Below, in pieces: positions 45,828 through 60,016 of a DNA stretch of 64,000 nt. Both the position numbers and the translations under genes were made by a program. The notes beneath the pieces are model-generated. The model had not been told where the DNA came from. It was given only the letters and a program-made list of their open reading frames with translations, and ran no database searches. This stretch comes from an uncultured Gemmatimonadales bacterium (GTDB lineage Bacteria; Gemmatimonadota; Gemmatimonadetes; JACCXV01; JAHWKZ01): positions 277,271 to 341,270 of the forward strand of contig CAMYLR010000006.1 in NCBI GenBank assembly GCA_947259315.1, in the 5' to 3' direction. Numbering within the stretch: the stretch's first letter is position 1; the number at the start of each line of letters is the position of its first letter.

Positions 45828-46886
45828 CTAGAAGCGCCAACCGACAGCGAAGTGGGTCTCGTCGCCCAGCTCGCTGACCGACACCTCGCGCGCGATGTCA
45901 GCCTCGAAACCCTCATAGTAGATGCCGATTCCGAAGGTCCCGCCGATCTGGCGATTGCCGTCCCCATCGTCGACAAACGGGTTGTCGATCGAAACGATCC
46001 CACCGCGTACGGTCACCACGTCGCGGAACGTGACAGCTCCCCCGAAGTGTTGGCTCGCCGTGGAGATCTCCCGGGCGTCGGTCTCGACGTCAAACAACAC
46101 GCGCGCTGCATACCCCTCCGGGATGCTGAGGAGATCGTTGAGGTTGACCCCGACCCCGATCCGGATCCGCGTCGGAAGCTGCTCCTGGCGATCGCTGCTC
46201 GACGACCCGCCTCCCGGAACGGCTACGCTACCGTCCTCGAGGTCGAGATCGGGTCCCATGTTCCTCACCGCCGCGGCCAGCTGCACCGGCACATCCAGCG
46301 GCGCGTACAAGACACCAAAATCGAACGCCGGTCCACTCGCCTCGACGACCCCGAGGTCCGAGCTGTACCACTTGAACGTGACCCCGTAGTCGAACTCGTC
46401 CCGCCACTGATTGGCGTAGGTGACACCGATCACCGACTCGTTGAGGTCGATGCTGCCAATCTCCGTCGGCGAAGTGTCGGTCAACGGCACGTCTCCAAAA
46501 TCGTGATAAACGAAATGCGCGCCGATCGTACCCCACGTCGCGACGTAGGCGCCGGCGATGTAGTTGCTGTTGAGATCCGCGATATCGGCACCCTCGAACC
46601 GGCTGTAGGTCAGAGCACCACGCTCGATTCCGCTCTGGGTTGCCGGGTTGTACGGGACACCCTGCAACTCACCGCGGACCGCCGCGACGGCACGACCTTG
46701 ACCCAACGGCCGCGCACCGAGTGGGAGCGTGAGACCTACCAGGCCACCGTTTTCGCCGTTGTCCTGACCCCGGACGGGTGCCGGGGCGATCAGCGTGACG
46801 AGAACCAGTGCCGTCAGGCATGAGAAGATGACGGGTCGCATTGAGACCCGAATCTCTCCGCCGGGGCTGCCCGTTGCAAGGATCAT
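45828..46886 (-). CDS. PorV/PorQ-like outer-membrane beta-barrel protein
   Basis: A protein of up to 352 residues. After the signal peptide come LPLGARPLGQGRAVAAV and VPYNPA, the N-terminal pattern of PorV/PorQ-type proteins, followed by alternating strands ending in WRF. PorV shuttles type IX cargo and binds its C-terminal domain. ATG 46886 overlaps the stop of the cargo-like gene (ATGA, 46883-46886); ATG 46841 gives a shorter signal peptide and is possible. Confidence 0.82.
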   Translation of the reverse strand: MILATGSPGGEIRVSMRPVIFSCLTALVLVTLIAPAPVRGQDNGENGGLVGLTLPLGARPLGQGRAVAAVRGELQGVPYNPATQSGIERGALTYSRFEGADIADLNSNYIAGAYVATWGTIGAHFVYHDFGDVPLTDTSPTEIGSIDLNESVIGVTYANQWRDEFDYGVTFKWYSSDLGVVEASGPAFDFGVLYAPLDVPVQLAAAVRNMGPDLDLEDGSVAVPGGGSSSSDRQEQLPTRIRIGVGVNLNDLLSIPEGYAARVLFDVETDAREISTASQHFGGAVTFRDVVTVRGGIVSIDNPFVDDGDGNRQIGGTFGIGIYYEGFEADIAREVSVSELGDETHFAVGWRF

Positions 46887-49714: not shown

Positions 49715-52700
49715 CTAGCCCGCCGCGAGCAGTGCCTCTTCGGGCTCGGGCTCCTCGACGGGTGCGTCGACGCTCTGCCGCGCACCGTCGAGCGATACCG
49801 AGACCAGCGCCGAGATTCCTGGCTCCTCCATCGTCACGCCGTACAGATAATCCGCCGCCTCCATCGTCCGCTTGTTGTGGGTGATGATGACGAACTGACT
49901 ATCGTCGCTGAAATGGCGAATCATCTGTAAGAAGCGGCTCACGTTGGCATCGTCCAGCGGGGCGTCGACCTCGTCCAAGATGCAGAACGGACTCGGCTTG
50001 ACGCGATAGATCGCGAATAGCAACGCGAGCGCGGTGAGAGCCCGCTCACCGCCGGACAGCAGATTGATCGAATGGACGCGCTTGCCGCGCGGGCTGGCGA
50101 CGATCTGGATCGGCGTCTCGAGGGGATCGTCGGGATCCTCCAAGTGGATCTCGGCAAACCCACCCTCGAACAGCGTCTGGAAGGTGTAGTCGAAGCTCTC
50201 CTTGATCTTTCCGAATGTCTCTACGAACAGCTCGCGGGCGGTGCGGTTGATCTTGCGGATCGCCTCCTCGAGCTGACGCCGGGCGACCACCAGGTCATCC
50301 CGCTGCTTGACCAGAAACTCGAGCCGCTCCGACTCGCGCTCGAACTCCTCGACCGCCAGCATGTTGACCGGGCCCAGGTTGGCGCGCTTGCGCCGCACCG
50401 CCTCGAGCCGAGTCTTGAGTTCGTCCAACTCCACCGTTTTCTCTTCATCGTCGAGCGGGTGCTCGGCCACCAGCGCCGCCAACCCGGTCTCGTACGTCTC
50501 CTCGATATGACCGGCTACCGTTTGGTGACGGTGCTCGATGTCTTGAAGCGTCAGCTCACATTGGTGACGTCGCTCCAGCGCCGCGTCGTGTTCGCGCCGC
50601 AAACCTCTTACTTCGTTATCGTGCCCCGATCGCTTCTCCTCGATCGCTGCCAAGGTCTCGCGATGTCCACGCAACCCGACCTCGACCGTCTCGAGCTCGA
50701 CGTAGAGCGCTTCGATCTCATCACCCGCGGTCTTGGCCTCAGCTTCGAGCCGCCTGCACTCGTCCTCGAGCCGAGCGCGTTCACCGGCTCGACCACCGCG
50801 GGCCTCTTCCAGGGCTGACTCGGCCGCACCCAGGTGTTCGAGTTCCCGCTCGACGAGACTCAGATCGGCCTCCGCGGCGGTTCGCTCGAGTTCGACCGCG
50901 TGGCGGGCCGAAATCCTCTCCGTGCGCACCTCATCGTACCGTTCGAGCGCAGTGCGAACGGCGGCCAGCCGCTCGGTCGCGCGGGTGGTATCAATCGATA
51001 GCTCGGCATGGGTCTTCGCGACCGCTTCCTGTGCCTGAAGGGCTCGATCGCGGGCCGCCTTTTGCTCGCCGATCTCAGCTTCGAGCTCAGCTCGCCGCCG
51101 AGCCGCGTGCGTGGCCGCTTCTTCGGCCGCGACCAGGGACTCGCGCCCGGCCCAGTAGGACCCGTCCGCCTCTCGCCATTGATCGCCGGCCGCACTCATG
51201 GCCGCGTTGTGTTCCGCCAGCTCGCCCTCGACCCGATCGAGCTCTTCGGCCAAGCCGGCGACATCGGCCCGCCGCCCCTTGAATTCGGTCTCGGCTTCCG
51301 CCAACTGGCGGCGGCGGGACAACAACCCATGGCCGTTCTCGGACCCGGCCGTACGCCAGCGGCCCACCGGCTCCAACAGCGTGCCGTCCAATCCGGCGAT
51401 CGTGTAATAGCCGGCTGCCTGTGGCTCGCTACCGAGCGCCGAACGACAACCAAAGCAGGCCGCCGCATTGGCGACGATCAGCAGCCGCTGGAACAGCGGC
51501 TCGAACCGCTCGGGCAGCTTGCGAGGACCGGTCCACCGCACAACATCCGAGCCGCGCGCCAACACATGCGCGGCGGCGGCATCAGGTATGGGAGGTGGAT
51601 CAGCCGCGCTGATTAGCTCCGGAATCAGAAAATCGGCCCGGCCGCCGCTCTTTCCGTCCAGCTGCTCGGCCGCTGCTAGCGCCGACTTTTGGTCCTTCGC
51701 CAGCAACCCATGGCCAAGGCTCTCAAGGTAGCGCTCGAGCGCTTTCTCGAAGCGACGATCGACGGGCTCGAGGACCTGGGGTAGCGCACCATACACGCCG
51801 CGCACGCGTTTCGACGCGCCAAGCAGCGAGCGGGCGCCCGACGCGTACCCTTCGAACCGCGCCTCAAGATCGGTCAGCGCGCTCTTGCGACCGGCTGCTG
51901 TCTGTTCGGCAGCCCGAGCTGTCTCCAATCTCTCTCGGATCGCATTGACCGTTGACGACAGCATGTCCGCCGCTGACTTCGCGATCTCACGGGCCTGGTC
52001 CGCTTCCGTCCGCTGCGCCTCGGCGGCCTCGACTGCAGCCCGGGCCCGATCAACGGCGGTCCCTGATTCACCCGCTTCGCGTTCCCGCAACTCGAGTTCG
52101 GCACTTAAAGCCGCTAAGCGCTCTTCTGCGCTCTCGGCCGCCGTGGCCTGACGAGCCCGGGCTTGGTCGACCTCTGCCAACCGCTCGCGCAGTGACTCGA
52201 GTCGTTCGGTGAGACGCCGCTGTTCAGCCATGAGGTCGGCCCGGCGTTCCTCCTCATCGGCGGTTTCGGACGGGGCCATTCGTTCGGCGATCCGGTCGAC
52301 TTGCTCGCGCGCCGCGGCCAGATCCACATCCAAGTTGGCTCGCCGTTCCGCCAGGTCATCCGACCGGATGCGCGCTTGCTCCGCCTCGGTGGCCAGCTCC
52401 TCCAACCGTTGCCGGTGGTGCTTGAGCGTCTCGCCGTTTACGAGTCGAACTTCCTCGCGACGCGCGATACGGCTGCGCACCGCCTCGACCGAACCACTGG
52501 TGGTCTGCTCCTGCTGGCGCAGCTCGATCAGCTCGATCTCCATCGTCTCGACACCGGCTTCGCGTTCGGCCAAGCGAGCCGCCAGCTCCGACTCCTTCTC
52601 CTGCAATCCGCGAAACTCCTCCGTCAATGGCGCCCGCTGTGTCTCCAGCGTCTCCAACTCGCACGCCGCCAAATGCACATCCAGCCGAGTCTCCTCGGCC

Positions 52701-53356
52701 TGATACTTCAGGAACCGGCGGGCCTTGCCGACCTGGCGTTTTAGCGAGGCGACGTTCCGATCGACCTCGGCCACGACGTCCTCGACGCGGTCGAGATCGA
52801 TCGTCGTCGCCTCGAGCTTCCGTTCCGTAGCCCGGCGCCGGTTCTTGTAACGCGTGACACCAGCCGCCTCCTCGAAGATCGTCCGCCGCTCCTCGGGCCG
52901 ATCCGACAACAGGCTGTCGACCATTCCCTGTTGAATCAGGGTGTACGAATGAGTACCGATCCCGGTACCCATCAGCAGATCCTGAATATCCTTAAGCCGA
53001 CACGGATGGCGGTTCAGCAGATAGTCGCTGTCACCATCCCGAAAGACGCGCCGAGCGATCGCGACCTCGGTGTACTCGATCGGCAGCAAGCCGTCCTCGT
53101 TCGAGAAGTGGAGCGCGACCTCGGCCAGATTGATCGGCTTGCGGTGCCGACTGCCGCTGAAGATCACCTCGTCCATTCGCGAACCGCGGACGAGCGTGGG
53201 CCGCTGCTCGCCCAGCACCCAGCGGATGGCGTCCGAGATGTTGCTCTTGCCACAACCGTTGGGACCGACGATCGCGGTGATCCCCGGATTGAACTCGATT
53301 GCAACGCGATCAGCGAACGACTTGAAGCCGAAGAGTTCCAGGCGCTGGAGTTTCAC
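49715..53356 (-). CDS. smc: Chromosome segregation ATPase SMC
   Basis: A 1213-residue condensin SMC: N-terminal Walker A GPNGCGKSNISDAIRWVLGEQ-type segment, two long coiled coils (rich in Glu/Arg/Ala) separated by a hinge (about 500-640), then signature LLSGGERALTALALLFAIY and Walker B FCILDEVDAPLDD. It compacts and separates chromosomes with ScpAB. GTG start at 53356, preceded by GGAGGT. It follows the SPOR protein gene by 15 bases, so the two are probably one operon. Confidence 0.97.
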   Translation of the reverse strand: MKLQRLELFGFKSFADRVAIEFNPGITAIVGPNGCGKSNISDAIRWVLGEQRPTLVRGSRMDEVIFSGSRHRKPINLAEVALHFSNEDGLLPIEYTEVAIARRVFRDGDSDYLLNRHPCRLKDIQDLLMGTGIGTHSYTLIQQGMVDSLLSDRPEERRTIFEEAAGVTRYKNRRRATERKLEATTIDLDRVEDVVAEVDRNVASLKRQVGKARRFLKYQAEETRLDVHLAACELETLETQRAPLTEEFRGLQEKESELAARLAEREAGVETMEIELIELRQQEQTTSGSVEAVRSRIARREEVRLVNGETLKHHRQRLEELATEAEQARIRSDDLAERRANLDVDLAAAREQVDRIAERMAPSETADEEERRADLMAEQRRLTERLESLRERLAEVDQARARQATAAESAEERLAALSAELELREREAGESGTAVDRARAAVEAAEAQRTEADQAREIAKSAADMLSSTVNAIRERLETARAAEQTAAGRKSALTDLEARFEGYASGARSLLGASKRVRGVYGALPQVLEPVDRRFEKALERYLESLGHGLLAKDQKSALAAAEQLDGKSGGRADFLIPELISAADPPPIPDAAAAHVLARGSDVVRWTGPRKLPERFEPLFQRLLIVANAAACFGCRSALGSEPQAAGYYTIAGLDGTLLEPVGRWRTAGSENGHGLLSRRRQLAEAETEFKGRRADVAGLAEELDRVEGELAEHNAAMSAAGDQWREADGSYWAGRESLVAAEEAATHAARRRAELEAEIGEQKAARDRALQAQEAVAKTHAELSIDTTRATERLAAVRTALERYDEVRTERISARHAVELERTAAEADLSLVERELEHLGAAESALEEARGGRAGERARLEDECRRLEAEAKTAGDEIEALYVELETVEVGLRGHRETLAAIEEKRSGHDNEVRGLRREHDAALERRHQCELTLQDIEHRHQTVAGHIEETYETGLAALVAEHPLDDEEKTVELDELKTRLEAVRRKRANLGPVNMLAVEEFERESERLEFLVKQRDDLVVARRQLEEAIRKINRTARELFVETFGKIKESFDYTFQTLFEGGFAEIHLEDPDDPLETPIQIVASPRGKRVHSINLLSGGERALTALALLFAIYRVKPSPFCILDEVDAPLDDANVSRFLQMIRHFSDDSQFVIITHNKRTMEAADYLYGVTMEEPGISALVSVSLDGARQSVDAPVEEPEPEEALLAAG

Positions 53357-53371
53357 GGGCAGGACCTCCGA

Positions 53372-55174
53372 TTACTGGCGTTTGATCATCGAAATGGGTT
53401 CGGCCGCCTCTTCGAGTGCGCGCCGAAGAACTCTTGCCTCATCTTGATTGCGGAATGCGCCCGCATATACGCGGTATGGACCGGCACCAACGACGTAGGC
53501 GGAGATCCCCCGGCTAGCGAGGTCGCGCTTGCGGACGTTGGCTTGATCGCGCGAGTCGAATATCCCCAGGTCGAACGCAAGCGGTGTCGATTGAACGAGG
53601 GCGTCATCGACTACGCCACGCCGCAGCAAGGTCTCACGCGCGGTGCGCGCACCGACCGAGTCTGCAAATGTCCCCGCGAACACGCGATACCACCGGCCAC
53701 GATCGGGGATGTCTACTGGGGTGACGAACGCCGTAAACCCGGCGGCTTCGATGCGACCGGCAACCCGACGCGCCGAGCGATTGTCCTGATACGACCCGGC
53801 GTGAACGGAGTACGGTGTCGGCGACGGGGGTGCAGTTGAAGGCTTGGGTGCCGGCTCGGCCGGGGGTTCCTCGACCACCGGCTCCTCGGTCGAACCGGTC
53901 GGCCCCACCGGGTCAACCAACGGAACCAACTCTCCGGGCGCCGCCGCAGGATCGGTTCCCTGGATCGCGTTCCCTTCGACATCGACCCGCGCCACCAATT
54001 GATCCGGGGAATCGCCGCCGTCTCCCAACCAGCCGCTGAGAACCGGCGCCATCATGCGACCAGCCAGAACACCCACCAGAACCACGAAACCACTCGCCAC
54101 GGCCAACCCCAGCCACCGGCGCCGCGGTGGTGTAACCCTAACCGCTGGCAATATCCGGCTGCGGGCCATCTTTGAGCGGACCGCTTTCAACCGATCGTCG
54201 ATCTGTGCCTCGGGTTCGAACTCGTTCGGCGTCACCCGGTCGCTTTCGAGCTTGTCCAAGAACGCCAGATCGTCCCCATCGGCAGTTGGCGGCGCGTCTT
54301 CCAGAGGCTGATCGCTATCTGTCATTGGACCGTCATCGTGCAACTCGACGTCATCGAGCCACCCATCGTCCACCGGCAACGAATCGGTGTCGGACAAGCC
54401 ATTGTTGTTGGCCAGGGCGAAGATGTGATCCGGCGGGCCGGCCGGTGGAGGCGAACCGGTGCCGCGCTTCGCACCGACAAGCACGTCCGGTAGTGGTCCC
54501 AGAAAACGGTGGGTCAGTTGACCGAGTTCGTCAGCCGCCTGCGGATCACCGCCAAGACGAACGATCCAGCGTTCGCTACCGATCAGATCGGTGCTCGACT
54601 CCTCGGCCTCGATCGCGAAAACGGCGTCACATATCGCCAGCACCCCGGCGGCATCGGCATCGCCGTTGCTCCCTGGCAAGGTCACCACCAGCACCTTGTA
54701 GTGTTGCCGCAACCGGTCGAGGGCGGCCCGAAACGCCGGCCCGTCGTCGAGCGCCGACCCACCCAGCAGGTTCGCTCCGCTGGTCAGCACGTCCATGTTC
54801 GGGATCGCTGTATTGCGCACGCATTGCTCGAGCGGCACGCCGTACTGAAGGTGATCGATCATCCCCTCCTTGAGATCGCGGCCCAACAACCGCTCGAGCC
54901 ACCGAAACTCGGGGCTCAGATCGACCAGCAGCGTGCGTAACCCGGCGCGAGCCAGAAACGCGGCCGACACGAACGACAATAGCTGCGGGTTGTGACCACC
55001 TCCCGTGAGTCGAGCGCCGACCAACATCGCGTCGCGGGTAGCGTCGGCCTCGATTTCGGTAAGCAGTTGGGCGTAGTCGGGATAGCTGCCCGAGAGCGCC
55101 GAGGCGCGCGATCCCTCGCGGACCGCGGTTAGCGCCTCGCGCCAGAATCGATCGTCTAGCTCAAAATCGCGCAT
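53372..55174 (-). CDS. P-loop-less CpsD/ParA-like ATPase fold fused to tandem SPOR domains
   Basis: A 600-residue protein. Residues about 45-235 keep the shape of a CpsD/ParA ATPase (TLLVDLSPEFRWLERLLG at 81-98, SGANLLGGS where CpsD has a ...PAGPxPPNP loop), but the P-loop is GARLTGGGHNP (53-62), without the GKS/T. An acidic linker (255-320), one transmembrane helix (about 353-372) and two SPOR domains follow (about 455-600), which bind denuded septal glycan. So the protein likely ties a nucleotide-independent cytoplasmic domain to the division septum. Immediately upstream of smc. Confidence 0.8.
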   Translation of the reverse strand: MRDFELDDRFWREALTAVREGSRASALSGSYPDYAQLLTEIEADATRDAMLVGARLTGGGHNPQLLSFVSAAFLARAGLRTLLVDLSPEFRWLERLLGRDLKEGMIDHLQYGVPLEQCVRNTAIPNMDVLTSGANLLGGSALDDGPAFRAALDRLRQHYKVLVVTLPGSNGDADAAGVLAICDAVFAIEAEESSTDLIGSERWIVRLGGDPQAADELGQLTHRFLGPLPDVLVGAKRGTGSPPPAGPPDHIFALANNNGLSDTDSLPVDDGWLDDVELHDDGPMTDSDQPLEDAPPTADGDDLAFLDKLESDRVTPNEFEPEAQIDDRLKAVRSKMARSRILPAVRVTPPRRRWLGLAVASGFVVLVGVLAGRMMAPVLSGWLGDGGDSPDQLVARVDVEGNAIQGTDPAAAPGELVPLVDPVGPTGSTEEPVVEEPPAEPAPKPSTAPPSPTPYSVHAGSYQDNRSARRVAGRIEAAGFTAFVTPVDIPDRGRWYRVFAGTFADSVGARTARETLLRRGVVDDALVQSTPLAFDLGIFDSRDQANVRKRDLASRGISAYVVGAGPYRVYAGAFRNQDEARVLRRALEEAAEPISMIKRQ

Positions 55175-55418: not shown

Positions 55419-58400
55419 TTAGAACTCCGGCGCTAGAGTGAATACCCAGCGGCCGGTCTTGAGCTCGGCCATATCGGTCTGCTGCGCGTAGTCAACGCGG
55501 ATCACGGCGAACCCGAACATGTTCATCCGGACACCTGCACCAAACGAGGCGCGGGCGTCAACCAGTCGGAAGCCAAAGGGGCCTCCGTCTTGGCTGGTCG
55601 AGAACTTGAACGACTCACGCAGCTCGCCTGTCTCGTCAAGCACTTCCGCTTGCTGGTGCTGACACAGCTCGTTGCCACAACTCGCAAAGCCGAGATCGTA
55701 CCATATGGCACCGCGGATCGGTGGGAACGCTGACGTTCCAAGCCGCGGACGCTCGATAATCGGGAATCGAAACTCGAGGTTGAAGAGTCCCACACCCGTC
55801 CCGACCAGGAAGTCATCTTCATCGAAGTCGAAGCCACGCAGCAGTGTCGGGCCTCCGATGCCTTGGAACCGCAGCTCGTCCTCCTGCTGGCCAAACGTGC
55901 CGAGGTACAGCAGCCGCGATGCGATCGTGTAGCGGCGACCGAGCAACCAGTACTTTCTGACGTCGCCGTAGAACTGTGTGAAGTCGCGATCGCCAAACGC
56001 CCTCTGAATGTCGAAGCGCCGCCGCGCCCCACCAATCGGCCCGGTGGACCCGAAGAAGCTGTTGTCGAACGCCCAACCGATCGACGGCGCGATGTAGGTG
56101 TCGCTGCCTAGCTCATCGACGATCTCGGGCGTCGGGTCGAAGAAGTCAAACCGTGCCCGACGACGCGAGATGTGCGTCGCATTTATAGACAGCTCCAACC
56201 TCCGGAAGCGGCTGAACGGGTAGGCAGTGGTCGCCTGCACGCCGCGATAGATGTCGCTTCGGAACAACAGGTCATCGCTTCGACCAGTGGACGTCGAGAG
56301 CGAGGCGAAGTCGCTTCGGAACTGATACGCCGACGTAGCCCAGTTCCAACGGCCCTTCCGATTCAGGTACGTGAAGAAGAGATCGCTGTCTGAAATCGAG
56401 CCGAACACCGACGCCGCTATGTACAGGTTGTGATCCCCCATCAGATCGCTGAACGCCAACTGGGACGCACCGAACGCACCCACCCCACTGGCGAAGCCCA
56501 CTGACGGCTGCGCGATCAGGTCGGGCTGGAACTTGACCTTGTAATCACGAGACCTGAAGGCGGTCGTGTCGCGAGGCAGACCGATCGTGGGATCCTTGAG
56601 TAAGGTCGCGATGTCGACCGGCTCGTTGAACGATGGCAAACGACGACCGGGCGCAGCGGCAACCGGGCGACGGCCTCCTCCCTGATCGGGCTGCTCACCC
56701 AGGTAGTACGAAACCGCGTCCGGCTGAGCGGGCTCTTCTGCCGCAACTTCTTCCCCGTCGGCCGGTTCAGGCTCGGCTACCTCGCCGTCGGCGGGCTCTT
56801 CAACCGCGTCGTCCGCCTCCCCGTCGATCGGTTGGGCGGGCACATCCGGCGCCTCGTCCGCGACCTCATCATCGGCCAACACCTCCTCGGCGGCTACCGG
56901 CTCTTCGACCACCGGCGGTTGTGGCGGGGCCACCGGCCGTGCCGGTTCGACGAACGCGCGGTCCGCCAAGTCGAACTCGCCCCGGTCCGGAGCCACGTAC
57001 GGCTCGGTCGCCAGCGACAACGGATCATCCAAGCGGTACAGATCCCAGCCCGCGTCGGCGAACGCGCTGAACACGATCCGGCTGCCATCGCGTGACCAAG
57101 CCATCGCCGGGCTCGATTCAATGATCCCGCTTACGCCGGTCAGCATGTTGGTCAGCTGATACGTCTCGTCTTTCTCTAGATCGTATAGAAAGATGTTTGT
57201 GATTCCAGTACGGTCAGAGAGATACGCAAGCGTCTTCCCGTCCGGACCCCACTGTGGGTTGATGCTCTTCCCTTCTTGGGCCGATATGTCTGACATGAAC
57301 CTCACCTCGCCGGAGGTCAGGTCATACACACCGATTTGATATTCGTCGTATGAGAGCAGATCGAAGTCCGTACCCTCACCGAACTCCGTGGTGAAGGCGA
57401 TCCGATTGCCATCCGGCGACCAGACAGGATCGCGTTGGGCGTAGCGATCGTTGGTCAACCTTCTCAGATCGGTTCCGTCGCGGCGAACGATGTACAGATC
57501 GCTGGTCCCACCCTTCTGTCCGGTGAACACGAGCTCTTGCCCATCCGGTGACCAGGACGGGGTCTCGATCCCATCGAGGTCAAAGCGATGAGAGGCGACG
57601 ATCTTCTCGTTGTCGATGCGCATGATATAGAGCGCGTCCTGCTCACCGACTTTGCTCGAGAAGGCCAGGAACTTCCCGTCGGGTGAGAACGACATACCAA
57701 CGCGCAGAAACCGCAGACTCTCAAACGTCTCGGAGCGTTCCCCGTTGACGAGCTTGTCCACGTCGGAGCCGTCTTCCGCGTTCGCTATGTACAGGTTGCT
57801 GAAGAACTCTCGGTTGGAGACAAACGCCACCTTGCTGCCGTCGGGTGACAGCGCCGGTCCGATGTTGATCGAGGCGCCCTCCTTGACGTGGTTGGTGAGC
57901 CGCACCGCGACCTCTGAGGCCGGCGGGTATAGAACAACCTGCGGCAGGTACGTGAGCCGAACCGCCTCGAGCCAATCTTCCGACAGGTCTTCGAGTCGCA
58001 AGTTGATCGATGTCCGAAACGCCTCGCGGACGCCCAGCAACGGCGCCTTCTGCATGATCTCGCCGATCTTCTCGTCACCATACTTGACGCCGATGTAGTA
58101 CCACAGCGCCTGGCCAAAGCGATAAACGCGGATGTCCTGCGCGCGCGACAACTCATCAATCGTCGTCAGGTACCCCGATAACGAGCCATCCCGCAGCCAC
58201 ATCGCCGTCAACGGATCGATCTTCCCGGCCGTGAGATACTCTGCCATGCCCTCCGCAAACCACAACGGCATACGGAACGCAAACGGGTTACTACCCTGTG
58301 ACAGGGCCCCGCGCCGTAGGATGTCGAACTGGAAGGCGTGAACGAGCTCGTGGGTAAGCGTGTGCTCGAACTCTGGGTACGCACTCGGGAAGAAAAGCAC

Positions 58401-58790
58401 GATGCGGTTTCTCAACCCTTCGGTGATACCGCCGGTACCCTCTGAGATCTGGAAGCGAAAGATGTTCGTTTGCTGGAAGTCAGACTGCGACGCGTACAGA
58501 ATGAGTGGCTTACGCTCGTTCCACTCGTGGCGGAACACCTTGGAGAGCCTCGCGTACGAGCGCTCGGCCATGCGCGCCGCATCGAGGATGGCGTCCTCTG
58601 CCTCCGGGTAATAGTGGATATCGAAGTGCTCCGTCTCGAGCACCCGGAAGTCCAGATCCTTGTACTGGACTTTGTTCTGTCCGAACTGAGCGTACGCTGG
58701 GCTAGCGATCAACCCACCGATCAGAAGCCCGACGAGGACGACAACATTGCGGGTCACGGAGCGCGCCAAGAGGTCTCCCTTCACTTTCAT
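55419..58790 (-). CDS. Peptidase-MA/beta-propeller/BamA-type barrel fusion
   Basis: A 1123-residue exported protein. Signal peptide, then a gluzincin-like domain with HELVH at 147-151 (zinc His residues and catalytic Glu), a TolB/PD40-type propeller (about 300-600, blades such as GPALSPDGSKVAFVSN and WSPDGNRIAFTTEF), an acidic Pro/Glu/Ala linker, and a C-terminal BamA/omp85-type 16-strand barrel ending with a terminal Phe (LAPEF). Predicted outer-membrane surface protease or assembly factor. ATG 58790 follows AGGAAAGAG. Confidence 0.88.
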   Translation of the reverse strand: MKVKGDLLARSVTRNVVVLVGLLIGGLIASPAYAQFGQNKVQYKDLDFRVLETEHFDIHYYPEAEDAILDAARMAERSYARLSKVFRHEWNERKPLILYASQSDFQQTNIFRFQISEGTGGITEGLRNRIVLFFPSAYPEFEHTLTHELVHAFQFDILRRGALSQGSNPFAFRMPLWFAEGMAEYLTAGKIDPLTAMWLRDGSLSGYLTTIDELSRAQDIRVYRFGQALWYYIGVKYGDEKIGEIMQKAPLLGVREAFRTSINLRLEDLSEDWLEAVRLTYLPQVVLYPPASEVAVRLTNHVKEGASINIGPALSPDGSKVAFVSNREFFSNLYIANAEDGSDVDKLVNGERSETFESLRFLRVGMSFSPDGKFLAFSSKVGEQDALYIMRIDNEKIVASHRFDLDGIETPSWSPDGQELVFTGQKGGTSDLYIVRRDGTDLRRLTNDRYAQRDPVWSPDGNRIAFTTEFGEGTDFDLLSYDEYQIGVYDLTSGEVRFMSDISAQEGKSINPQWGPDGKTLAYLSDRTGITNIFLYDLEKDETYQLTNMLTGVSGIIESSPAMAWSRDGSRIVFSAFADAGWDLYRLDDPLSLATEPYVAPDRGEFDLADRAFVEPARPVAPPQPPVVEEPVAAEEVLADDEVADEAPDVPAQPIDGEADDAVEEPADGEVAEPEPADGEEVAAEEPAQPDAVSYYLGEQPDQGGGRRPVAAAPGRRLPSFNEPVDIATLLKDPTIGLPRDTTAFRSRDYKVKFQPDLIAQPSVGFASGVGAFGASQLAFSDLMGDHNLYIAASVFGSISDSDLFFTYLNRKGRWNWATSAYQFRSDFASLSTSTGRSDDLLFRSDIYRGVQATTAYPFSRFRRLELSINATHISRRRARFDFFDPTPEIVDELGSDTYIAPSIGWAFDNSFFGSTGPIGGARRRFDIQRAFGDRDFTQFYGDVRKYWLLGRRYTIASRLLYLGTFGQQEDELRFQGIGGPTLLRGFDFDEDDFLVGTGVGLFNLEFRFPIIERPRLGTSAFPPIRGAIWYDLGFASCGNELCQHQQAEVLDETGELRESFKFSTSQDGGPFGFRLVDARASFGAGVRMNMFGFAVIRVDYAQQTDMAELKTGRWVFTLAPEF

Positions 58791-58885: not shown

Positions 58886-59296
58886 TTAATCCCCCACGGG
58901 CGATTCACCGTTCTCCGAGAACGTCTCGATCGGCGCGTCGCCCCACAAACGCTCGAGCTCGTAATAGGCCCGCGTTTCGCGATGAAACACGTGCACAACG
59001 AAGTCGATATAGTCGAGCAGCACCCAGTTGCCCTGCCGGGCCCCTTCCACGTGCCAGGGACGAGCACCCTCGGTTTTCAATCGCTCTTCGATGCGATCCG
59101 CGATCGCCTTGACCTGGACATCGCTCTCGCCGCTGGCAAGAACGAAGTAATCGGTAGCGGAAGTCAGGCCCCGCAGATCGAGTAGTACCACATCCCGACC
59201 GCGACGGTCGACCGCTTCCTTGGCTGCCGCGGCAGCCAGGGCGTGAATCTCGGCGTCGCCGGAAGTGCGGCGCGCCCGGCGGCTCGGTGGGGTCAA
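58886..59296 (-). CDS. rsfS: Ribosomal silencing factor RsfS
   Basis: A 136-residue protein: DVVLLDLRGLTSATDYFVLASGESDVQVKAI-type core, W-HVEGARQGNWVLLDYIDFVVHVF and YYELERLWGDA. It binds bL14 to block subunit joining in starvation. TTG start 59296 overlaps the rplI stop (TTGA). Closing gene of the rpsF-rpsR-rplI cluster. Confidence 0.95.
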   Translation of the reverse strand: MTPPSRRARRTSGDAEIHALAAAAAKEAVDRRGRDVVLLDLRGLTSATDYFVLASGESDVQVKAIADRIEERLKTEGARPWHVEGARQGNWVLLDYIDFVVHVFHRETRAYYELERLWGDAPIETFSENGESPVGD

Positions 59297-59754
59297 CCCT
59301 GGTCTCGTGTTACGAGCACCCGGATCGGGACGCTGACTTCAGGATGGAGTCGGATCGAGACTTCGTAATCACCCAGCGTCTTGATTGGATTGTCCAGCCT
59401 CACGTGGCCTCGCGCCGCGACAAAGCCGCGCTCGACCAATCGCTCGGCGATGTCGGCGGTCGAAACCGAGCCATAGAGCTGGTCCTCGTCGCCGGCCATC
59501 ATCTGAAACTCGAGCACCAGACCCGCCATGGTCGCCGCAATTTCCTCGGCTTCGACCTGCTCCTCGCGCAGCTTTTGCTCGTACTTCTTGCGCTCCTGCT
59601 CGATGCGCCGCTTGTTGGCTGCCGTCGCTACGTAGGCCAGACGCTGCGGCAACAGATAATTGCGAGCGTAGCCGGCTGCGACCTCAACGACGTCGCCGGC
59701 GTGCCCGAGGTTCTCGACCTCAGCGCGCAAAACCACTTCGGTGTGCTTGCTCAT
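59293..59754 (-). CDS. rplI: Ribosomal protein bL9
   Basis: A 153-residue 50S protein: LRAEVENLGHAGDVVEVAAGYARNYLLPQ, the connecting long helix (KRRIEQERKKYEQKLREE) and the C-terminal domain with LYGSVSTADIAERL. It stabilises 23S rRNA near L1. ATG 59754 gives the family length; the upstream open frame runs into rpsR. Confidence 0.97.
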   Translation of the reverse strand: MSKHTEVVLRAEVENLGHAGDVVEVAAGYARNYLLPQRLAYVATAANKRRIEQERKKYEQKLREEQVEAEEIAATMAGLVLEFQMMAGDEDQLYGSVSTADIAERLVERGFVAARGHVRLDNPIKTLGDYEVSIRLHPEVSVPIRVLVTRDQG

Positions 59755-59791
59755 CGTTCGGTCCCTCGTTCGCTGATCCCGAGCCGCGATC

Positions 59792-60016
59792 TCAAAGCGC
59801 GTGATCCGGCAGATATGGAATGAGTGCCAGGAAGCGGCCCCGCTTGATCGCGGTTGCCAACTGACGCTGGTGGCTGGCACATGTACCTGTTACGCGTCGT
59901 GGCAGGATCTTCCCCCGGTCGTTGGTAAAGCGATCCAACATGTGCTGATCTTTGTAATCGATCGCCACTTTGTTCTCGCAGAAGTGGCACGTTTTCTTCC
60001 GCCTGTAGGCCGTCAC
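59792..60016 (-). CDS. rpsR: Ribosomal protein bS18
   Basis: A 74-residue 30S protein: [19 protein letters not shown], then [36 protein letters not shown]. The two N-terminal Cys of CHFC may bind zinc. It pairs with bS6. GTG start at 60016 overlaps the rpsF stop (GTGA, 60013-60016). Confidence 0.97.

Follow-up and report, generated by a model that had tools for sequence, protein, structure and literature searches.

A predicted BY-pseudokinase-SPOR membrane protein encoded next to smc in Gemmatimonadota

Several described systems resemble the protein discussed here in one part or another. DamX-like proteins display an AAA-TM-SPOR architecture, and CpsD is not known to carry a SPOR domain. The BY pseudokinases EcpK from Myxococcus xanthus and HfsB from Caulobacter have been proposed to be scaffolds that operate by contact alone (PMC12004946). 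In Streptococcus pneumoniae, CpsD has been linked, together with CpsC, to ParB (PMC4574921) and to RocS (PMC7022226). For RgsS, SPOR/AmiC targeting has been described (PMC7822825). Below, a gene located directly upstream of smc in a Gemmatimonadota genome is compared to these systems. The analysis covered a window of 64,000 nucleotides (the whole stretch of DNA that was analysed) and the related loci of the phylum.

The gene pair and the predicted fold of its upstream product

In the window, a 600-aa open reading frame precedes smc on the same strand (Table 1). The first-pass annotation had placed this frame 15 bases before smc, and indeed 15 nt separate its stop from the GTG start of smc. The smc product itself is 89% identical to that of the nearest named relative, a Gemmatimonadota MAG. 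The 600-aa protein starts with a domain of P-loop fold that lacks the P-loop itself; from there, an acidic disordered linker leads to a single TM helix and a Pro-rich linker to two SPOR domains.

Table 1. Features of the smc locus in the window
Feature	Position	Strand	Basis
Putative BY-pseudokinase - TM - SPOR x2 protein, 600 aa	53372..55174	(-)	ORF; Pfam/NCBIfam/PDB matches; family of orthologs
N domain, residues 1-215, predicted BY-kinase fold, predicted cytoplasmic	54530..55174	(-)	AF2 model, VIA, Foldseek
Position of the lost Walker A (RLTGGGHNP, residues 55-63)	54986..55012	(-)	CapB alignment; column counts, 85 sequences
Single TM helix, residues 351-375, Arg-rich N side	54050..54124	(-)	AF2 helix 353-374; sequence RRRWLGLAVASGFVVLVGVLAGRMM; family hydropathy scan
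SPOR domain 1, residues 452-518	53621..53821	(-)	Pfam PF05036; model pLDDT ~95-98
SPOR domain 2, residues 532-598	53381..53581	(-)	Second Pfam stretch; model
smc, 1213 aa, full bacterial SMC	49715..53356	(-)	TIGR02168, 981.7 bits, E 5e-295
PD40 beta-propeller protein; C end outer-membrane-barrel-like by eye	55419..58790	(-)	Pfam PD40 x6
rsfS	58886..59296	(-)	Pfam RsfS 4.2e-33; equivalent block in relatives
rplI-like	59293..59880	(-)	Named from sequence and context, without HMM; homologs beside rsfS in L190, L192, L194, L196, L197

The N domain matches TIGR01007 in the NCBIfam search (6e-8) and CapB in the PDB (4jlv, 1.7e-5). The 600-aa protein furthermore displays a weak similarity to the Ssd model TIGR03815 (4.7e-5). 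Its AAA_31 match in Pfam has an E value of only 0.12, below the cut-off, and the P-loop is absent, so that the AAA domain of the DamX-like proteins is not recovered. Structure prediction, which had been suggested as a check in the first-pass annotation, was performed with AlphaFold2 on an alignment of 75 sequences. In this model the pLDDT of the N domain is 78-97 in most 10-residue blocks and lower at the ends, both SPOR domains are modelled with very high confidence, and the linkers between the domains are disordered. For the N domain, Foldseek ranks BY-kinases first (4jmp, E 3e-7). VIA-align yields Z scores of 18.5 for VpsO, 18.2 for Wzc and 18.2 for CapA1B1, compared to 15.2 for MinD and 13.9 for ParA/Soj. 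Over residues 1-213, the values for VpsO, Wzc, CapB, Etk and BceF lie at 17-18.5, as expected for a BY-kinase fold. Judged from the model, the N domain falls within the ParA/MinD superfamily, where it stands nearer to the BY-kinases than to ParA/MinD and is best called BY-kinase-type. The ParA/CpsD-like ATPase fold proposed earlier is thereby retained in outline and narrowed down to its BY-kinase side. When the family profile was run on 11 named genomes outside the phylum, only Wzc-length kinases and other proteins matching the N domain, along with separate SPOR proteins, were found, and no pseudokinase-SPOR fusion. The Wzc-length kinases fit a BY-kinase ancestry of the domain.

The catalytic motifs of this fold have not been kept. 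The Walker A of CapB, GAGKST, pairs with GGGHNP in the 4jlv alignment, leaving no Lys and no Ser/Thr at the P-loop positions, just as had been claimed at first reading, and a Walker A is found at that position in 0 of the 85 aligned family sequences. A cryptic P-loop elsewhere in the protein had been named in advance as an observation that would speak against this loss. The possibility was rejected: a scan for G....GK[ST], GG.GK and G.GK[ST] returned none in the window protein and, across 85 relatives, a single chance GxxxxGKS (L144, another species) outside the Walker A position. Where the Walker B Asp would be expected, the window protein has Thr (residue 165), and most relatives in the 85-sequence alignment have V, Y, A or F. 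The Walker A' motif (two Asp and an Arg) is incomplete as well; its first Asp, D85, occurs in 71/85 sequences, and at residue 87 the window protein has Ser, with Asp seen in just 6/85. Elsewhere in the alignment Gly104 and Gly133 are invariant, and Asp107 is present in 68/85. The Tyr-rich C-terminal tail is absent from the window protein, which contains zero Tyr between residues 160 and 454. The deviant Walker A that defines ParA of ParABS systems, KGGxGK[ST], is also missing from the 600-aa protein, and parB was not an immediate neighbour in the inspected loci, where smc and PD40/rsfS or SPOR genes are found instead. By the features used for EcpK (fold kept, Walker motifs and Tyr tail lost), the N domain is a BY pseudokinase domain, and it is likely to be catalytically dead.

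The TM helix and the two SPOR domains that had been noticed at the outset were both recovered. As RRR precedes the helix, an N-in orientation is predicted, which should put the N domain in the cytoplasm and the SPOR pair in the periplasm. Pfam assigns SPOR in two stretches with 67.7 bits (cut-off 21). The best NCBIfam match, TIGR02223 (FtsN), covers the SPOR part only and reaches 37.5 bits vs a cut-off of 107.65, too low for an FtsN equivalog. By eye, the usual SPOR Gln (Q270 in RlpA, PMC6895207) is a His in the first SPOR domain of the window protein.

Gene order around smc in the phylum

With the family profile at 1e-10, 260 of 298 Gemmatimonadota genomes give a match, some of these matches being kinases or other SPOR proteins. 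Among the 150 best matches listed, 121 come with a listed smc coordinate, and in all 121 the gene sits immediately 5' of smc and shares its strand. Random neighbour genes in relatives, the second observation that would have counted against the first-pass annotation, can thus be rejected. The stop-to-start gap was determined in 99 loci, which include a few genomes twice and in which the smc starts were assigned by homology: it is -4 in 41, -1 in 19 and 0 in 10, meaning that the two genes overlap or abut in 70/99. Most of the sampled families of the class have the pseudokinase-SPOR gene immediately before smc, often overlapping it. Since protein identity between families amounts to only ~20-25%, the pairing with smc appears to be old.

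The pair belongs to a larger block. The common order is (rpsF, rpsR)-rplI-rsfS-[PD40]-[beta-propeller-SPOR]-pseudokinase-SPOR, followed by smc. In the window, rplI, rsfS, PD40 and the pseudokinase gene are present and the beta-propeller-SPOR gene is absent; relatives of the PD40 gene occupy the equivalent position in L189, L192, L193 and L199. The content of the rsfS-smc gap differs between families, and in several of them the beta-propeller-SPOR gene (a second SPOR gene) and the PD40 gene share it. The pseudokinase gene, where found in the class, was the neighbour of smc. Inherited gene order of the rplI-rsfS block could explain part of this adjacency, and the block is the main reason for caution because the translation genes in it are unconnected with SMC.

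The domain composition of the smc-adjacent gene is less constant than its position. In family f6, the full form is found in G195 and G255. The SPOR domains have been lost in the genera g12, g16, g58, g59, g72, g79 and g111, leaving the pseudokinase domain and the TM helix. In g54 both TM and SPOR are gone, and a ~180-aa pseudokinase domain alone remains, with a gap of 3 nt to smc. These short forms are probably losses, because family f11 has the full form. At the end of the f6 series, in genera g8, g32 and g56 and in G146 of g69, smc is present with no such adjoining gene, which means that SMC functions without it. Several f5 genera also lack the pseudokinase gene, and there smc is abutted by the beta-propeller-SPOR gene. 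Of the parts of the protein, it is the pseudokinase domain that is constantly paired with smc, and the SPOR tether varies.

SPOR content was also compared to that of the denuding amidase. All 13 genomes without a full-length Amidase_3 have no SPOR match at all, compared to 1/17 of those with the amidase, although few lineages are represented. The link is one-way only: no amidase means no SPOR, and the reverse fails. The prediction that SPOR loss from the smc-adjacent gene follows loss of the amidase was rejected, as the g54, g58, g59, g79 and g111 genomes lack SPOR here and keep the full amidase.

In family f11, which belongs to another class, a metH-like gene lies upstream of smc and other genes follow. 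A fusion of 957-1185 aa (pseudokinase, acidic linker, TM and SPOR) is nevertheless encoded ~4 kb from smc in convergent orientation, in 4/4 contigs that cover both genes. No P-loop is present in L181, L182 and L184, the three of these four fusions that were read. Because smc has a different neighbourhood in f11 and the fusion is still near, the co-location also occurs outside the ribosomal block.

Possible roles of the pairing

The reading favoured here is that of a bitopic membrane scaffold that ties SMC and nucleoid handling to septal peptidoglycan. The SPOR pair would bind denuded septal glycan, thereby placing the protein at the division site. There, the pseudokinase domain could act as a protein-protein contact platform for SMC or for an SMC/ParB-associated partner. 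Chromosome organisation or clearance would in this way be coupled to septal wall synthesis, as with CpsD/RocS and ParB in the pneumococcus, yet without phosphorylation. The physical link to SMC, the septal localisation and the glycan binding are all putative, and the chain as a whole, including the SMC-septum coupling, is put forward tentatively, as somewhat short of an even prospect. In its favour are the placement before smc in all 121 loci, the frequent overlap, the age of the pairing, the f11 co-location, the survival of the pseudokinase domain beside smc in g54, the BY-kinase fold with its lost Walker A, and the absence of SPOR from the 13 genomes without amidase. Weighing against it are the conserved rplI-rsfS block, the genera whose smc has no such neighbour, the beta-propeller-SPOR gene that takes its place in f5, the short forms that keep the amidase, and the His in the first SPOR domain. 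A scaffold had already been proposed in the first-pass annotation. This part of its claim agrees with the precedents of EcpK/HfsB (PMC12004946) and of CpsD-ParB (PMC4574921); the connection of SMC with septal peptidoglycan is one that we infer, and it is qualified by the conserved rplI-rsfS block around smc and by the inconstancy of SPOR and TM.

A bolder reading would make the pseudokinase domain a dedicated Gemmatimonadota SMC accessory factor, an inactive domain of ParA/BY-kinase fold in direct contact with the SMC complex. It would normally be held at the septal peptidoglycan by TM/SPOR, but would work also as a soluble domain of ~180 aa (g54) or in the TM-only form of the seven f6 genera named above. 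This proposal is rather unlikely as it stands. An equally doubtful one is that of a divisome or envelope SPOR protein (FtsN- or DamX-like) whose pseudokinase domain contacts division or wall-synthesis proteins. It would be unrelated to SMC, its adjacency arising from a rarely rearranged rpsF-rplI-rsfS-smc block. The conserved translation genes, functionally unconnected to SMC, the beta-propeller-SPOR and PD40 genes that also occur in the gap in several families, and the top rank of the FtsN model in NCBIfam, though far below cut-off, all agree with such a protein. However, the other gap genes are present in some families and absent from others, whereas the pseudokinase gene, where found in the class, adjoined smc; the sister class keeps the fusion and smc close outside the block; and the pseudokinase domain beside smc outlives the SPOR part.

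The frequent overlap or abutment of the two genes would also be explained by a regulatory pairing, in which smc translation is coupled to that of an envelope protein to set SMC dosage and the two proteins never meet. This is improbable, since it leaves unexplained both the retention of the pseudokinase domain alone after loss of TM and SPOR and the f11 co-location on opposite strands. More improbable still is an EcpK/HfsB-type role in the export of capsule or exopolysaccharide, with the pseudokinase serving a polysaccharide co-polymerase. The fold and the loss of the BY-kinase motifs are as described for EcpK (PMC12004946), but the published description of EcpK includes no SPOR domains and the constant neighbour is smc. 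In the inspected smc neighbourhoods, moreover, ribosomal, rsfS, PD40 and smc genes were found, and neither a PCP-2 (Wzz/Wzc-type) partner gene nor a polysaccharide locus.

Returning to the membrane scaffold, the data suggest that chromosome handling is connected with the cell-division wall in a way not described before. For the question of how chromosome folding keeps pace with septum formation outside the model bacteria, the gene, which accompanies smc in most of the phylum, is a concrete candidate link, and its natural domain-loss series offers a way to test which part of the protein matters.

Comparison with described systems

BY pseudokinases and bitopic SPOR proteins were both already known. 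For a fusion of the two, and for the association of such a fusion with smc, no description was found in the open-access literature.

Like FtsN, DedD and RgsS, the window protein is predicted to be bitopic, with a periplasmic linker and C-terminal SPOR. These proteins, however, are without a BY-kinase-like domain, and the window protein scores below the NCBIfam cut-offs and has two SPOR domains. The DamX-like proteins share the cytoplasmic P-loop-fold domain, one TM helix and SPOR domains. They are represented here by the f11 AAA_22-TM-SPOR proteins L187 (AAA_22 match at 5e-27) and L191, which differ in keeping an intact AAA-type P-loop (GDIGTGKT) and in adjoining a secretin-like gene, away from smc. 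These two are the nearest architectural relatives seen in this analysis. To Ssd (TIGR03815), a septum protein of the MinD/ParA superfamily, there is a weak sequence similarity and a related fold, but the domain in the window is predicted to be membrane-anchored with SPOR and has lost its P-loop.

CpsD offers the functional parallel: its BY-kinase/ParA fold is located at the division site and contacts the machinery of chromosome segregation (PMC4574921, PMC7022226). In contrast to the window protein, CpsD has kinase activity, a Tyr cluster and a role in the capsule, and its gene lies in a capsule locus. EcpK shares the BY-kinase fold from which the Walker motifs and the Tyr tail are missing (PMC12004946), as does HfsB. 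EcpK, however, is described as working together with EpsV, a co-polymerase, at a polysaccharide locus (PMC12004946), whereas the domain described here is fused to a TM helix and two SPOR domains and is linked to smc, which makes it an example of BY pseudokinases beyond polysaccharide export.

The smallest form of the pseudokinase family

The smallest form of the pseudokinase family is the stand-alone domain of about 180 aa in genus g54, whose gene ends 3 nt before smc. No Pfam match was obtained for the member tested (L210).

Coordinates of the features
Feature	Location	Strand
Stand-alone pseudokinase domain (g54)	L210:2229-2777; L211:2495-3043; L212:2138-2686	smc-oriented
PD40 beta-propeller protein	window 55419-58790	-
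Possible PorV-like protein	window 45828-46886	
Second SPOR protein	L189:5886-7457; L192:7193-8776; L196:7464-9083	
AAA_22-type domain, TM and SPOR domains (f11)	L187:2179-4083; L191:688-2553	

Possible envelope genes near smc

The PD40 protein, with a C end that appears barrel-like by eye, is possibly part of one envelope unit with the SPOR genes, since the place of its gene between these and rsfS is kept in several families. The protein at window 45828-46886 is possibly an outer-membrane beta-barrel of the T9SS PorV kind, to which it has a weak match (E 0.0039, under the cut-off).

A second SPOR protein was also observed at the smc loci of relatives (further loci: L035, L039, L042, L046 and L205-L209), its gene being absent from the window. 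A lipoprotein-like N end is followed by beta-propeller-like repeats (by eye) and a single C-terminal SPOR. The gene lies upstream of the pseudokinase gene or, where the latter is absent, directly before smc.

Absence of SPOR and an ATPase counterpart

Neither a SPOR domain nor a full-length Amidase_3 was found anywhere in 13 fairly complete f6 family genomes (G010, G034, G052, G031, G037, G040, G043, G046, G022, G058, G104, G115 and G016), which suggests that their daughter cells separate by a different route.

In the sister-class family f11, the AAA_22-TM-SPOR genes adjoin a secretin-like gene. With an intact P-loop, they form a counterpart, of the active-ATPase type, to the pseudokinase-TM-SPOR architecture.
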